Virus record (IMG/VR): IMGVR_UViG_3300044620_000417
Span: 1 to 21,531 of that record
Source: a virus
Direction: 5' to 3' (one strand)
Length of the DNA stretch: 21,531 bases
Part shown: positions 965 to 19,180 of the stretch, in pieces
How positions within the stretch are numbered: the first letter of the stretch is position 1
How the letters are laid out: every line of letters begins with the position of its first letter
The notes under the pieces: generated by a model
Databases searched by the model: none
What the model saw: the letters and a program-made list of their open reading frames with translations, nothing else
What the model was told of the DNA's origin: nothing
Position numbers and translations under genes: made by a program

Positions 965-1041
965 AAAGTACTCATTTTCACTGGTCAGGGACGCTAGGAC
1001 CGATACTTTATCTAGGAATAGATACAGACACAGTCCTAGCG
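965..1041 (+). repeat. Structured repeat element, copy A
   Basis: CGCTAGGAC (992-1000) and GTCCTAGCG (1033-1041) form a perfect 9-bp stem enclosing a hairpin TATCTA-GGAA-TAGATA (1009-1024). Upstream AAAGTA (965-970) is complementary to TACTTT (1004-1009), which would cross the 9-bp stem as a pseudoknot. Bases 992-1041 are identical to 19060-19109. It lies between the TOPRIM gene and the next promoter, so it is at the 3' end of a transcript. No T-run follows this copy. Function is unknown; a 3'-end structure, terminator or regulatory RNA are all possible. Confidence 0.8.
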
Positions 1042-10559: not shown

Positions 10560-11615
10560 ATGAGCTATCCGTTTATCATGCAGGGCAACAGCATTACAGT
10601 TGTTATTGGTTCTAAGCCCCACACAATCTCTAAGAGCCACATTACTTTCCAAAAGGTTCTTGACGCTATCAAGGCACAAGACTGGGACTTGGTTAAAGAC
10701 ATTATTGAGCCAGTCAAGGTTGTTCTCAACTATGGCAAGGGCAACGTAAGTGTCCAAGGTGAGGAATTGTTCTGGAAAGGTAAGCCAATGCACAACGCAT
10801 TGAGCAACCGAATGATTGCAATGTTGCAAGATGGCTTCCCTGTTGAACCTCTGGTCAACTTCATGGAAAACTTGATGACTAACCCATCTAAGCGGGCAGT
10901 CACTGAGTTGTATGGCTTCTTGGAAAAGAACAGCTTGCCAATCACTCCTGATGGTTGCTTCTTGGCTTACAAGAAAGTTCGTAATGACTTCTTGGACATT
11001 CACTCTGGCACAATGGACAATAGTGTTGGTAATATTGTTGAAATGGAACGCAATGAAGTTGATGACAACAAGGATCAAACTTGTTCAACTGGTTTGCACT
11101 TCTGTTCACAGGACTATCTGCCACACTTTGGCAATGGTTACGATAGCCGTGTTGTTATCTTGAAGATCAACCCTGCTGATGTGGTCTCTATCCCTAGCGA
11201 CTACAACAACGCTAAAGGTCGTGCATGTCGTTATGAAGTTGTCGGTGAAATCGGCAACGACGGTGACAAGATTGACAATGCTTTCAACAAGCCTGTGCAG
11301 TCTAACGCAAGCAACAACATCGCTAAACCAGTTGCCCCGGTAGCAAAAGCACCGAAGACTGGTTCTAGTGAATTCTATCGTGGTTACACTGATGGATATG
11401 AAAGTAGGGAGTTTTCTCCTGGTTTCAAATTCAACAAGGACTATCAAGAAGGCTTTGATAAAGGTGAGACTGATGCAGACTGGGAAGATGGTCCTCGCTA
11501 TCAGTATGTGAGTACACCGGCAGGTTGGACTCGACACAGTGATGGTAAAGTAAGTCCTCCACCAGGAACTACTTTTAATGCACAAAGTGGTGCATGGCCC
11601 TTCCCAACTAAGTAA
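10560..11615 (+). CDS. rIIB: rIIB-like protein
   Basis: A 351-residue protein from ATG 10560 (GAAGGAAA upstream; a TTG 15 bases earlier is unlikely). The core has the RIIB signatures: FMENLMTNPSKRAVTELYGF (about 98-117), FLAYKKVR, TCSTGLHFCSQDYLPHFG (about 175-192) and VVSIPSDYNNAKGRACRYEVVGE. T4 RIIB works with RIIA in the same phenotype. The C-terminus after about residue 260 is an unusual Gly/Tyr/Asp-rich tail (YRGYTDGYESREF ... DKGETDADWEDGPRY), longer than the T4 protein's 312 residues. The gene is closed by a clear terminator. The rII call is firm; mechanism is not known. Confidence 0.88.
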   Translation: MSYPFIMQGNSITVVIGSKPHTISKSHITFQKVLDAIKAQDWDLVKDIIEPVKVVLNYGKGNVSVQGEELFWKGKPMHNALSNRMIAMLQDGFPVEPLVNFMENLMTNPSKRAVTELYGFLEKNSLPITPDGCFLAYKKVRNDFLDIHSGTMDNSVGNIVEMERNEVDDNKDQTCSTGLHFCSQDYLPHFGNGYDSRVVILKINPADVVSIPSDYNNAKGRACRYEVVGEIGNDGDKIDNAFNKPVQSNASNNIAKPVAPVAKAPKTGSSEFYRGYTDGYESREFSPGFKFNKDYQEGFDKGETDADWEDGPRYQYVSTPAGWTRHSDGKVSPPPGTTFNAQSGAWPFPTK

Positions 11616-11633
11616 TACTTAGTACTACAAATT

Positions 11634-11656
11634 AGCCCCTTAAACGGGGCTTTTTT
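11634..11656 (+). terminator. Intrinsic terminator after rIIB
   Basis: AGCCCC (11634-11639), loop TTAAAC, GGGGCT (11646-11651), then a run of T. It ends the rIIA-rIIB transcript just before the next promoter. Confidence 0.9.
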
Positions 11657-11661
11657 GTGGC

Positions 11662-11690
11662 TTGACAATAAATGGATTTGGGCATATAAT
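11662..11690 (+). promoter_or_regulatory. Promoter with 12-bp palindrome at the start site
   Basis: TTGACA (11662-11667), 17-bp spacer beginning ATAAATGG, TATAAT (11685-11690). AATACATGTATT (11688-11699) is a perfect palindrome covering the predicted start at 11697, shared with the 7279 promoter. Confidence 0.85.
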
Positions 11691-12686: not shown

Positions 12687-12875
12687 ATGACAAAACAATA
12701 CGAAATCACTGTCAAGATTTTGGTCACCGTGCCCAATGACAATAGTTTGGGTATGAACGCGGATCAATGGGCCGGCAAAATTGCGGGCGACTGGGCAAAC
12801 ATGGCGCTGACTTACAGAAACATCGGTGCTGACGAAGTTGTGGAAGTAACTGCTAAGGAGGCAGAAAATGTCTAA
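12687..12875 (+). CDS. Small hypothetical protein, 62 aa
   Basis: A 62-residue acidic protein, MTKQYEITVKILVTVPNDNS..., with strand-helix-strand character ending VVEVTAKEAENV. It follows the previous stop by one base and overlaps the start of the NadM gene by 8 bases, so it is probably co-translated with it. No motif. Confidence 0.7.
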   Translation: MTKQYEITVKILVTVPNDNSLGMNADQWAGKIAGDWANMALTYRNIGADEVVEVTAKEAENV

Positions 12876-13890
12876 AAAATACGATACACTTGTCCTCATT
12901 GGACGCTTTCAACCCTTACACAATGCTCACCTTGAGATTATCAAACGTGCCACAGCATTGACTGACCAATTGGTCATTATCACTGGTTCGGCAGCACAGC
13001 CCCGTACTTACAAAAACCCCTTCACTAGCAAAGAACGTGCCAACATGATTAAGGACGCTACCCGCGGTCTTAACATGCATGTTTATGTTGAAGAAAACAT
13101 TGACACCATCTACAACGACCAAGCCTGGGCTATTCGTGTTCAAGGTATTGTTAGCAAATATCGTGTGCTAGGTGGAAAAGGTGTAGGTATCATTGGTCAC
13201 AAGAAAGATGACAGTAGTTTCTACCTCGATATGTTCCCTCAATGGGGTTACGAGAATGTGGAACTGATTGAATTCTTGAGTGCGGTTGACATTCGTGACC
13301 TGTATTTCAAGCGTGAAGTCAATATGAAATTCATTAAAGGTGTTGTGCCTGAATCAACATTTGATTTCTTGGATGAATTCCGTATCACACCCGAGTATGA
13401 GCAAATCATCAAGGAGCGTGAGTTCGTGGCTAACTACAAAAAACAATATGCTAGTCTGCCATATCCCCCAATCTTCTCTACTGCGGATAGTGTAGTGATT
13501 CAGTCGGGTCATGTGTTGATGATTAAACGCCGTAGCGAACCCGGTAAAGGCTTGTGGGCATTGCCCGGTGGTTATGTTAACGCTAACACTGACAAGACTG
13601 TACTGGATGCGGCCATTCGTGAACTGCGTGAAGAAACATTAATCAAAGTGCCCGGTCCTGTACTGCGTGGTAGTATTGTTGATAACCGTGTGTTTGATGC
13701 TGTGGATCGTAGCCCACGTGGTCGTATCATTACACACTGTTTCAAAATCGTATTGCCTGATGGTGAACTGCCAAAAGTAAAAGGCAGTGACGATGCTGAA
13801 AAAGCACGATGGGTTCCTATCGCAGAAGTGCGTAGTGAAGAATGTTTTGAAGACCACTATGACATGGTCATGTGGGCAGTTGGAGCTTGA
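12868..13890 (+). CDS. nadM: Bifunctional NMN adenylyltransferase / Nudix hydrolase (NadM type)
   Basis: A 340-residue two-domain protein. Residues 1-185: nucleotidylyltransferase with LIGRFQPLHNAHLEII (10-25; HNAH at 18-21 is the HxGH motif with Gly replaced by Ala) and the second motif PFTSKER (51-57). Residues 200-340: Nudix domain with LWALPGGYVN (229-238) and RELREETLI (251-259), matching the Nudix box core; Lys stands where a Glu usually precedes it. The N-domain joins NMN and ATP to give NAD+. The Nudix part in this family cleaves ADP-ribose or related compounds. AAGGAGG is an excellent ribosome binding site. With NadV at 15582 it completes nicotinamide-to-NAD+ salvage. Cytosolic. Confidence 0.92.
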   Translation: MSKKYDTLVLIGRFQPLHNAHLEIIKRATALTDQLVIITGSAAQPRTYKNPFTSKERANMIKDATRGLNMHVYVEENIDTIYNDQAWAIRVQGIVSKYRVLGGKGVGIIGHKKDDSSFYLDMFPQWGYENVELIEFLSAVDIRDLYFKREVNMKFIKGVVPESTFDFLDEFRITPEYEQIIKEREFVANYKKQYASLPYPPIFSTADSVVIQSGHVLMIKRRSEPGKGLWALPGGYVNANTDKTVLDAAIRELREETLIKVPGPVLRGSIVDNRVFDAVDRSPRGRIITHCFKIVLPDGELPKVKGSDDAEKARWVPIAEVRSEECFEDHYDMVMWAVGA

Positions 13891-14286: not shown

Positions 14287-14504
14287 TGAATGATGATATT
14301 TGTCTATCGTGTAAACATGGTGGCATTCACTATTGTCCGGATAAGAATGGTAATCCTATACCGAAAGGCAATCATTCATCCCCACCACCTGAATTACCAG
14401 ACAGTGTAAATTTCTGGACATATATTTCTTGTAAGAAAAATTTTGGTCTGCCTAAGGCAGCCTACATCAACAAGTGCCCGCTGTGGCAATCAAAAGGAAA
14501 GTAA
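14286..14504 (+). CDS. Small Cys-rich protein, 72 aa
   Basis: A 72-residue protein with CLSCKHGGIHYC near the N-terminus (Cys 6, 9, 17) and later SCKKNFG and NKCPLW (Cys 49 and 64). The spacing suggests one or two zinc or iron sites. Proline-rich middle (SSPPPELPD). It overlaps its neighbours on both sides as TAATG. Function unknown; metal binding is inference. Confidence 0.65.
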   Translation: MNDDICLSCKHGGIHYCPDKNGNPIPKGNHSSPPPELPDSVNFWTYISCKKNFGLPKAAYINKCPLWQSKGK

Positions 14505-15022
14505 TGAGACATTATACAAACACAGACAATCCAATTGACTTTCCTAAGTCGGCATTGAAGCATGTCAAAGGCAATCTACTGGACTTGGCAGAAGCAGGTG
14601 AGTTCGATATTGTAGTACAAGGCTGTAATTGCTTTAACACTATGGGTGGAGGCATTGCCCGTGAGATTCGTGAACGCTATCCAGTTGTGGCAAGTGTTGA
14701 TATGGTAACTCTAAAGGGAGACTACCGCAAGTTGGGCAATTGGACTGAATGCGATGCTGGCGAAAAGAATCGTTTTACGGTTATCAACGCCTACACTCAA
14801 TATAATATGAGTCGTGGCACTGATGTATTTGAATACAATGCGTTCCAATTGATTTTGGAAAAGTTGGCTTTTGTCTTTCCTGGCAAACGGTTCGGCCTAC
14901 CCTACATTGGATGCGGACTTGCCGGTGGCGAACAGGAAACTATCGTTGACATGATCGACGTATTTGCCAGACGAGTTGCCCTAGAAGGCGGCACAGTGAC
15001 ATTGGTGGAGTTTGTACGATGA
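14504..15022 (+). CDS. Macro-domain protein (ADP-ribose binding/processing)
   Basis: A 172-residue protein that is essentially one macro domain: HVKGNLLDLAEAGEFDIVVQ (24-43), GCNCFNTMGGGIAREIRERY (44-63, the Asn-containing ligand loop and Gly-rich turn), FTVINAYTQY (88-97), and LPYIGCGLAGGEQETIVDMI (126-145, second Gly-rich loop). Macro domains bind ADP-ribose and relatives; many phage members are annotated as Appr-1''-p phosphatases or ADP-ribosyl hydrolases. The start at 14504 has AAAGGAAAG upstream and overlaps the previous stop. Its neighbour overlaps by ATGA. Close placement to NadM and NadV suggests a role in handling ADP-ribose made when defence enzymes break NAD+; this is inference. 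Confidence 0.88.
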   Translation: MRHYTNTDNPIDFPKSALKHVKGNLLDLAEAGEFDIVVQGCNCFNTMGGGIAREIRERYPVVASVDMVTLKGDYRKLGNWTECDAGEKNRFTVINAYTQYNMSRGTDVFEYNAFQLILEKLAFVFPGKRFGLPYIGCGLAGGEQETIVDMIDVFARRVALEGGTVTLVEFVR

Positions 15023-15581: not shown

Positions 15582-17006
15582 ATGAGACTCGGAAGACACT
15601 CTTTTGCAAAACTCGCAAAAAACATTATCTTGAACACAGACAGCTACAAAGTTAGCATGTTCAAACAATACCCAGCAGGAACTACTGGTGTATACAGTTA
15701 CATTGAATCCCGGGGTGGGCGTTACGATCAAACAGTATTCTTCGGACTCCAGGCTTTTATCAAAGAATACCTACTTGAACCCATTACCCAAGCAGACATT
15801 GATATTGCAGATGAAATCCTTACTGCCCACGGAGAGCCATTTAACCGAGCAGGATGGCAATACATACTGGACAAGCACATGGGATACCTCCCACTTGTCA
15901 TTAGGGCAGTCAGTGAAGGAACGGTTGTCCCTGTTAAAAATGTCTTGGCCACCATCGAGAACACAGACCCCAACGTCCCCTGGCTGACTACTTGGGTTGA
16001 AACTCCGATCCTCCGAGCAGTGTGGTATGGTACTACTGTATCTACACAAAGCAAATTCATTAAAAACATCATCACAGAGTACTTGGAGAAGTCAGGTGAC
16101 CCTACAACTATTGGTTTTAAGTTACATGATTTCGGCGCTCGTGGTGTCTCTAGCCTGGAGAGTGCTGGTATCGGTGGTGCCGCACACTTGGTTAACTTCA
16201 TGGGGACTGATACCCTCAGCGGTATACTGTTGGCTCGTGAATATTACAACGCTGGTGTTGCTGGTTTCTCCATCCCAGCCGCTGAACACAGTACTATCAC
16301 TAGTTGGGGTCGTGCCGGTGAAGTAAAAGCCTACAGCAACATGGTCAAGCAGTTTGGTGTACCAGGTGCATTGTTGGCAGTAGTGTCTGACAGTTACGAC
16401 ATTTACGAAGCATGCCGCATGTGGAGTACCGGTGACTTGAAACAACAAGTTATTGATAGTGGTGCTACAGTTGTTATTCGTCCTGACAGTGGTGATCCTG
16501 TAGAAGTGTTGCCAAAGATGTTCCGCATCTTGGCTGAAGGCTTCGGCTACACTACAAACACTAAAGGCTACAAAGTACTGAACAATGTTCGTGTACTGTG
16601 GGGCGATGGTATCAACCAGTTGAGCATCAAGTCAATTCTCAGCGTAATGGTTGACATGCATGGCTACAGTGCAGATAACATTGCATTCGGTATGGGCGGT
16701 GCATTGTTGCAACAACTTGACCGCGATACTCAAAAGTTCGCTATGAAGTGTTCAAGTGCAGAAGTCAACGGTGAATGGATTGATGTGTTCAAAGATCCAA
16801 TCACTGACCAAGTGAAAGCCTCTAAGAAAGGTCGTATCACTCTTTGGCAGTCTGGTGGTGAGTTTCAATCTAGTGTTGAACAACCAAAAGGATGGACTGA
16901 CAAGGGTATTGGTCCTTGGACAGAGGCACTGGTTGAAGTGTATCGTGATGGTAAACTCATCCGAGAATACACCTTTGACGAAGTTCGTGCGAACAGCATG
17001 AAATAA
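15582..17006 (+). CDS. nadV: Nicotinamide phosphoribosyltransferase (NadV/NAMPT)
   Basis: A 474-residue protein, the usual size for NAMPT. It makes NMN from nicotinamide and PRPP. Conserved segments: NTDSYKVSMFKQYPAGTTGV (18-37), YIESRGGRYD (40-49), LHDFGARGVSSLESAGIGGA (181-200), PAAEHSTITSWGR (232-244, with His236 at the place of the catalytic His of human NAMPT), VVSDSYDIYEA (267-277), VVIRPDSGDP (297-306, phosphate/ribose binding) and LWGDGINQ. The start has AAAGGAA upstream. It has its own promoter and terminator, separate from the NadM operon. Cytosolic, partner of NadM at 12868. Confidence 0.96.
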   Translation: MRLGRHSFAKLAKNIILNTDSYKVSMFKQYPAGTTGVYSYIESRGGRYDQTVFFGLQAFIKEYLLEPITQADIDIADEILTAHGEPFNRAGWQYILDKHMGYLPLVIRAVSEGTVVPVKNVLATIENTDPNVPWLTTWVETPILRAVWYGTTVSTQSKFIKNIITEYLEKSGDPTTIGFKLHDFGARGVSSLESAGIGGAAHLVNFMGTDTLSGILLAREYYNAGVAGFSIPAAEHSTITSWGRAGEVKAYSNMVKQFGVPGALLAVVSDSYDIYEACRMWSTGDLKQQVIDSGATVVIRPDSGDPVEVLPKMFRILAEGFGYTTNTKGYKVLNNVRVLWGDGINQLSIKSILSVMVDMHGYSADNIAFGMGGALLQQLDRDTQKFAMKCSSAEVNGEWIDVFKDPITDQVKASKKGRITLWQSGGEFQSSVEQPKGWTDKGIGPWTEALVEVYRDGKLIREYTFDEVRANSMK

Positions 17007-18190: not shown

Positions 18191-18198
18191 TAATACAT

Positions 18199-18273
18199 AA
18201 GTATTCAATTTATCGGTTCTGGGACGCTAGGACCGATACTTTTTTCAGGAACGCATACTGACATACATCTAGC
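18199..18273 (+). repeat. Structured repeat element, copy B (diverged)
   Basis: Shares GGACGCTAGGACCGATACTTT with copy A at its core (18222 onward, written here as 18222-18242) but is diverged downstream: only GCTAG (18226-18230) and CTAGC (18269-18273) remain of the long stem. A different stem, ATCGGTTC (18212-18219) with GGACCGAT (18230-18237), is followed by ACTTTTTT and is a good intrinsic terminator. Outer AAGTAT (18199-18204) also pairs with ATACTT. It sits before a promoter, as copies A and C do. Confidence 0.65.
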
Positions 18274-18287
18274 AAAAACAGAAAAGG

Positions 18288-18316
18288 TTGACAATAAATC
18301 ACTTTGGGTATACAAT
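18288..18316 (+). promoter_or_regulatory. Promoter for the 18349-19005 genes
   Basis: TTGACA (18288-18293), 17-bp spacer beginning ATAAATC, TACAAT (18311-18316). Leader shares TAGAATCTTAGACAGTTAA with the 19411 promoter leader. Confidence 0.85.
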
Positions 18317-19032: not shown

Positions 19033-19114
19033 AAAGTATTCATTTTGATGCCATAGGAACGCTAGGACCGATACTTTATCTAGGAATAGATACAGACACA
19101 GTCCTAGCGTTTTT
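19033..19114 (+). repeat. Structured repeat element, copy C
   Basis: Bases 19060-19109 are identical to 992-1041 (50 of 50). CGCTAGGAC (19060-19068) and GTCCTAGCG (19101-19109) form the 9-bp stem, with the inner TATCTA-GGAA-TAGATA hairpin at 19077-19092. AAAGTA (19033-19038) is complementary to TACTTT (19072-19077), as in copy A. Unlike copy A, TTTTT (19110-19114) follows the stem, so this copy could work as an intrinsic terminator. The flanks are much less alike than the core. Confidence 0.85.
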
Positions 19115-19122
19115 GCCAAAAG

Positions 19123-19180
19123 TTGACAATAAATGGATTTGGGTATATAATCATTACATAGACAGTTAACTAAAGGACTC
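19123..19180 (+). promoter_or_regulatory. Promoter and leader cassette, copy 2
   Basis: TTGACA (19123-19128), 17-bp spacer, TATAAT (19146-19151), then a leader through AAAGGACTCA. It matches 7696-7753 with one difference. Confidence 0.88.

Follow-up and report, generated by a model that had tools for sequence, protein, structure and literature searches.

A roughly 100-bp element that probably punctuates transcription between early genes of uncultured phages

Three copies of an intergenic element in the window

The window, i.e., the whole stretch of 21,531 nt analyzed here, corresponds to positions 1 to 21,531 of IMG/VR virus record IMGVR_UViG_3300044620_000417, and carries three copies of a short non-coding element. 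Genes ending at 962, 18157, and 19005 precede copies 1 to 3, respectively, and TTGACAATAAAT promoters at 1055, 18288, and 19123 come after them, confirming the placement between gene end and promoter proposed in an earlier sequence-only reading. The features of the three copies, along with the genes flanking copy 1, are as follows.

441-962, + strand: gene preceding copy 1, encoding a partial primase/TOPRIM protein (PHROG phrog_849, E 1.4e-39; Pfam Toprim_2)
938-968, + strand: AT-rich upstream hairpin H1 of copy 1, TACTTTAGT / ACTAAAGTA (RNA fold)
965-978, + strand: conserved box of copy 1, AAAGTACTCATTTT, near-invariant in both core types
988-1009, + strand: type I core of copy 1, GGGACGCTAGGACCGATACTTT, near-invariant in type I
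992-1041, + strand: 50-nt repeat of copy 1 with its 9-bp stem, 992-1000 / 1033-1041 (sequence; fold z -5.2; stem lineage-limited)
1055-1083, + strand: early sigma-70 promoter of copy 1, TTGACA-17-TATAAT (12/12)
1090-1428, + strand: gene following copy 1, encoding a small GIY-YIG endonuclease-like protein (Pfam PF01541, E 3.3e-5; phrog_5123)
18198-18211, + strand: conserved box of copy 2, variant TAAGTATTCAATTT
18211-18245, + strand: terminator-like hairpin of copy 2, TATCGGTTCT-GGGACGCT-AGGACCGATA, then CTTTTTT (12 pairs and T-tract; fold; -18.9 kcal/mol)
18221-18242, + strand: type I core of copy 2
18288-18316, + strand: promoter of copy 2, TTGACA-17-TACAAT (11/12)
19033-19046, + strand: conserved box of copy 3, AAAGTATTCATTTT
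19056-19077, + strand: type I core of copy 3, GGAACGCTAGGACCGATACTTT
19057-19114, + strand: long hairpin of copy 3, the 50 nt of copy 1 with an extended stem, then TTTTT (fold z -6.5; terminator-like, -22.7 kcal/mol)
19123-19151, + strand: promoter of copy 3, TTGACA-17-TATAAT (12/12)

Copies 1 and 3 share 50 identical nucleotides (992-1041 and 19060-19109), exactly as previously reported from the letters. In copy 1 numbering, this stretch consists of the arms CGCTAGGAC (992-1000) and GTCCTAGCG (1033-1041), a symmetric pair of 8-nt joints (1001-1008 and 1025-1032), and the inner hairpin TATCTA-GGAA-TAGATA (1009-1024), and the two bodies that contain it fold with z-scores of -5.2 (copy 1) and -6.5 (copy 3). 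The 9-bp stem and GGAA hairpin had been attributed to each copy, which holds for copies 1 and 3 but not for copy 2 (starting at 18198), where both are missing. What copy 2 (18198-18242) has in common with the other two is a 22-nt core, GGGACGCTAGGACCGATACTTT, and its fold is a different one: the spacer ATCGGTTCT pairs with the core segment AGGACCGAT, the core thus forming the 3' arm of a hairpin followed by CTTTTTT. The 17-nt string CGCTAGGACCGATACTT is present at three window positions (992, 18225, and 19060), but in none of 100 dinucleotide shuffles. Copy 1 as a whole extends from the conserved box at 965, which overlaps the 3' arm of H1, to the promoter end at 1083; the 50 bp initially taken as the unit are therefore a genuinely identical stretch, but the actual unit is a cassette of ~100 bp running from box to promoter. 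Separately, the gene at 441-962 matches only the middle of the phage primase profile (148-330 of 435, phrog_849), and may thus represent a free-standing TOPRIM fragment.

A family with two core types and near-constant spacing

Scanning IMG/VR for the exact core retrieved 19 contigs, which aligned as box AAAGTAYTCATTTT, 9 nt, 22-nt core, 45 nt, and TTGACAATAAAT. The ~100-bp cassette thereby comprises, in order, the box, the core, a variable hairpin, and an early promoter (TTGACAATAAAT..TATAAT). A second IMG/VR scan, in which the box could lie at any distance from the promoter and the core was left unspecified, yielded 94 stretches, most of them of one total length, and uncovered a second core type, GGGGCTTCAAAATCGCTAGA (hereafter type II). 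Overall, these scans detected ~100 loci on uncultured phage contigs of up to 524 kb, corresponding to 66 distinct sequences (31 type I and 35 type II). Profile searches with either core type retrieve the other, and the window copies are matched by a sequence-only type II model (1e-6 to 1e-9).

Among the distinct elements whose box to -35 spacing was measurable, it was 89 nt in 27, 90 nt in 30, and 87 nt in 3, i.e., 57 of 60 were at 89 or 90 nt. The 86-column alignments of each of the two types were gap-free, despite wide sequence variation between core and promoter. The exceptions were lineages carrying either 23-bp tandem repeats or an HNH endonuclease gene between core and promoter, and in one L157 copy the box lies 121 nt from the -35. 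The tandem repeats (ATACCAAAGTAAATTTCAGGGGA, 2 to 4 copies) were found in three lineages (L028:13257-13346, L032:6895-6936, and L049:2255-2295) and are reminiscent of both the box (AAAGTA..TTT) and the motif CAGGGG. The HNH gene lies on the opposite strand, between the core and the GIY-YIG promoter (L105:7575-8189 in genome G004, and also L006 and L009). On another contig, 13 tRNA genes are clustered upstream of a type II element (L126:277-4030).

The element is found at only a subset of early promoters: 3 of ~9 in the window, and 4 elements vs 39 promoter-pattern matches on the 524-kb contig. Since most TTGACAATAAAT promoters are devoid of it, we rejected the idea of a feature generic to all early promoters. 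The window has three copies; at the cut-offs applied, 0 to 4 were counted on each large contig, many contigs being incomplete, with a single copy on one of 260 kb. A role as replication origin was likewise discarded, as the cumulative GC skew of the 260-kb contig had no extremum at the element and up to 4 or more copies are found elsewhere.

Terminator signals

Next, we evaluated hairpins located directly before a T-tract, using a threshold of -12 kcal/mol or better and shuffled sequences for comparison. Such hairpins were detected in 31 of 35 type II elements (14% of shuffles) and 19 of 31 type I elements (15% of shuffles). Within the window, copies 2 (-18.9) and 3 (-22.7) qualify strongly, while in copy 1 H1 and a weaker site together give about -14. 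No T-tract comes after the main stem in copy 1 or in its class within type I, so that any termination at copy 1 would have to rest on the AT-rich H1 with its TTTT. The combination typical of intrinsic terminators, i.e., a stable hairpin with an adjoining U-rich tract, is thus present in these 31 type II and 19 type I elements and in window copies 2 and 3, but not after the main stem of copy 1. Ordinary intrinsic terminators likewise consist of a hairpin and a U-tract, a combination significantly enriched in the cassette, but unlike the cassette they have neither conserved primary sequence nor fixed geometry across loci. Elsewhere in the window (11600-11690), a plain GC-rich terminator, GCCCCTTAAACGGGGCTTTTTT, stands directly before the TTGACAATAAAT promoter at 11662, forming a comparable terminator-promoter composite that lacks the conserved core.

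RNA structure in the two types

Type II elements fold with a mean z-score of -5.7 and share three pairings, P2 (CCCC-TCA-GGGG), P3 (AAAATCGCTAGA/TCTAGCGATTTT), and P4 (TCAG/CTGA). When natural partners were compared to permuted ones, 0 of 2000 permutations were as good for P2 and 4 of 2000 for P3, with a less clear outcome for P4 (64 of 2000), although these values are optimistic given that the sequences are related. Compensated variants included GCACC/GGTGC (L126), CACCG/CGGTG (L166), and CGATAG/CTATCG (L123). Across the P3 core (36-43) and P4, 14 G·U cells were observed vs 1 A·C cell, a bias expected from selection on the + strand RNA. Double changes were few (2 cells), and the covariation support is thus real but modest. 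Taken together, sequence comparison indicates that type II is constrained at the RNA level.

For type I, the 9-bp stem that had been put forward as a conserved RNA feature is not family-wide: its pairs form in 66% of type I cells, with columns 36-69 unpaired in 17 of 27 rows and columns 35-70 in 15 of 27, and among 26 distinct type I bodies, no more than 12 allow a stem of -7 kcal/mol or better. In this arrangement, G·U cells are as frequent as A·C cells (23 each). The core stays near-invariant whichever partner it faces, whereas the 3' partner varies, which limits the stem to part of type I. The GGAA hairpin fared better, with compensatory forms within type I (CTA/TAG vs GCA/TGC) and 15 cells changed on both sides vs 8.5 expected, a value reached in 2 of 500 shuffles, although this compensation probably stems from few evolutionary events. 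By contrast, the suggested AAAGTA/TACTTT pseudoknot is not supported: both motifs are nearly invariant, but the variant GATTCTTT, present in 5 of 27 distinct type I rows, breaks the pairing (columns 5-41) with 0 cases compensated, and type II has AAAGTA without TACTTT. RNAalifold returned no meaningful consensus in type I, and H1 was set aside as a co-evolving stem, as its left arm showed no partner-specific signal across the family (1756 of 2000 permutations as good). These tests indicate that it is primary sequence that type I conserves, with hairpins formed from different partners by lineage. A structure model compared to a sequence-only model gave mixed results on type I, with lower scores for window copies 1 and 2; hence, types I and II are related by sequence and not by a shared fold. 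Of the earlier proposal that identity outside coding sequence reflects RNA-level selection or copying, much stands, i.e., there is selection beyond coding, at least partly at the RNA level, and the element has been copied around.

Termination alone would not require the type I core to be conserved so strictly, and an operator or RNA-binding role for this letter-for-letter core is the leading rival to a terminator-promoter function. We regard as possible, if doubtful, that the near-invariant core is a dedicated control site, bound as RNA or DNA by a phage or host factor, which would place this subset of cassettes under regulation, with the two interchangeable core types marking two early-gene regulatory classes in an uncultured jumbo-phage clade. 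The more specific scenario of a DNA operator, where a phage or host protein bound at a set distance before the -35 would regulate this subset of early promoters, seems unlikely. It would fit a core that stays near-invariant as its pairing partner changes, the near-constant spacing to the -35, the minority of early promoters with an element, and the 23-bp repeats (AAAGTAAATTTCAGGGG..) of three lineages, which resemble the box and GG motif. However, these repeat arrays and the HNH insertions alter or break the core-promoter distance, and an operator predicts neither the partner-specific pairing of type II nor its excess of G·U relative to A·C.

A regulated or multi-state RNA, i.e., a switchable terminator or a protein-bound 3' RNA, is quite unlikely in our view. 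Conserved TCAG motifs do compete for one CTGA, and the core can pair with three different partners, giving alternative folds across copies (CGCTAGGAC/GTCCTAGCG, ATCGGTTCT/AGGACCGAT, and AATTCTTTT/AAAAGAATT); yet the differing folds were seen in different copies rather than in one RNA, and the downstream genes have no common theme. Pairing of the type I spacer with the 3' segment is also no better for natural than for permuted partners (607 of 2000 as good), and this outer stem was dropped as a feature of the type, striking as individual cases can be (e.g., TGTGTCAG/CTGACACA in L132).

Genomic context and mobility

The order gene end, element, promoter was found in all loci listed, and among these the flanking genes are co-directional wherever a downstream gene was found, HNH insertions excepted. 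Clustering of the flanks yielded 13 upstream and 10 downstream families in at least 21 combinations. Exchange is also visible within single elements: L009 is a chimaera whose upstream flank and spacer are those of the window's class, while its downstream part is that of L006, and its switch point falls inside the shared core, in a stretch identical in both parents. At the primase/GIY-YIG locus, most contigs carry a type I element, while L139 and L162 carry type II between the same two genes. In a shifted-junction control, however, linkage at some control junctions (offset +700) was as low or lower; the shuffling of flanks is therefore regional, and the control does not single out the cassette as a special breakpoint. 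With linkage low elsewhere in the region too, the surroundings in which the cassette moves are plastic in general, and the element does not stand out as a unique recombination hotspot.

The frequent endonuclease neighbors raise the question of whether adjoining GIY-YIG or HNH homing endonucleases use the element as their site of recognition or insertion. A GIY-YIG gene does follow most copies, and in G004 and its related contigs an HNH gene separates the core from the promoter. Nevertheless, many copies have no adjoining endonuclease gene (L035, L026, L166, L193, and window copies 2 and 3), and a GIY-YIG gene also lies behind an element-free promoter (L032), making this explanation very improbable. 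Recent duplication and gene conversion alone, with no function beyond the promoter, could account for the identical 50 nt of copies 1 and 3 in one genome, but is hardly credible in view of the structure enrichment and of a core and spacing kept in 66 distinct sequences, on contigs that differ in their flanks and elsewhere.

A putative transcription-punctuation cassette

Sequence comparison establishes the anatomy and fixed spacing of the element, its association with different gene pairs, the enrichment in terminator-like structure, the RNA-level constraint on type II, and the chimaeras. We consider that it is probably a composite transcription-punctuation cassette of ~100 bp, which would terminate one early transcript, start the next, and be moved by homologous exchange. 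RNA polymerase coming from the upstream gene would copy the cassette into hairpins and U-tracts, and a hairpin with its U-tract would probably end the upstream transcript; ~14 bp further on, the consensus sigma-70 early promoter would start the next gene. Homologous exchange inside the conserved segments appears to shuffle the cassette along with the different gene pairs around it. Both termination and initiation are thus predicted to take place in vivo, and the conserved core presumably matters for exchange or factor binding. Such a cassette would offer a sequence-defined unit for how giant phages transcribe small early genes separately yet swap them freely, and, if the core is a factor-binding site, a regulatory layer beyond the promoter alone.

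This punctuation cassette would function like the promoter early stem loops (PeSLs) of T4-type phages, which Arbiol et al. in 2010 and Comeau et al. in 2014 reportedly presented as composite promoter-terminator motifs. All three window copies include a PeSL-type promoter (TTGACA-17-TATAAT, 12/12 or 11/12), and a PeSL-type modular exchange of flanks is seen in the 21 combinations and the chimaeric L009, this exchange being regional. Later work refers to PeSLs as mediators of gene shuffling (PMC4503421). The likeness to PeSLs lies in a strong sigma-70 early promoter with a terminator-like stem-loop, in module shuffling, and perhaps in recurrence between small early genes. Packaged mini-circles arising from exchange between copies count as a further PeSL trait. 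Their anatomy differs: in the cassette, the hairpins lie upstream of the -35, the box is at a near-constant 89-90 nt from the -35, and a 22-nt core is conserved in two types. The cassette may thus represent an undescribed variant of an element kind already known from T4-like phages. In phage RB49 (L198), several sigma-70 promoters (43031, 33335, and 25338) contain an inverted repeat in their -35/-10 spacer, and the scanned stretch includes one promoter with a terminator just upstream.

Bacterial dispersed mobile repeats of the REP/BIME, MITE, and Correia type are short, non-coding, dispersed, and hairpin-forming. The cassette resembles them in all these respects, but its orientation relative to genes is fixed and each element has a promoter, and neither terminal inverted repeats nor target-site duplications were seen. 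Assignment to an already known family of terminators or mobile repeats had been named as one of the outcomes that would overturn the first interpretation; this holds by half, as the element is both mobile and terminator-like, yet no catalogued family includes it. In Rfam, no match was obtained in the window, nor at the element at relaxed thresholds, in agreement with the initial statement that no named RNA family corresponds to it.

Distribution and gene content of the element-bearing phages

The window and type II elements had no match beyond chance in the cultured phage collection, and no element was detected in PA5oct, Paride, Phosso, or ACP17 at E of 1 or less. In bacterial genomes, two exact core matches without the rest of the element were taken as chance. 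The cassette also provides a search model marking members of an uncultured jumbo-phage group. Element-bearing phages encode rIIA/rIIB, tail sheath, and terminases of T4-like families; the nearest cultured terminase is from Arenbergviridae (50% identity), and the nearest rIIA from the KVP40 group (31%). In the window, genes at 12868-13890 and 15582-17006 encode NAD+ salvage products, i.e., a cytidyltransferase/NMN adenylyltransferase-NUDIX protein and a nicotinamide phosphoribosyltransferase, a neighbor pair also found in Acidovorax phage ACP17. The ORF at 14474-15022 encodes a macro-domain-like protein, as judged by eye.
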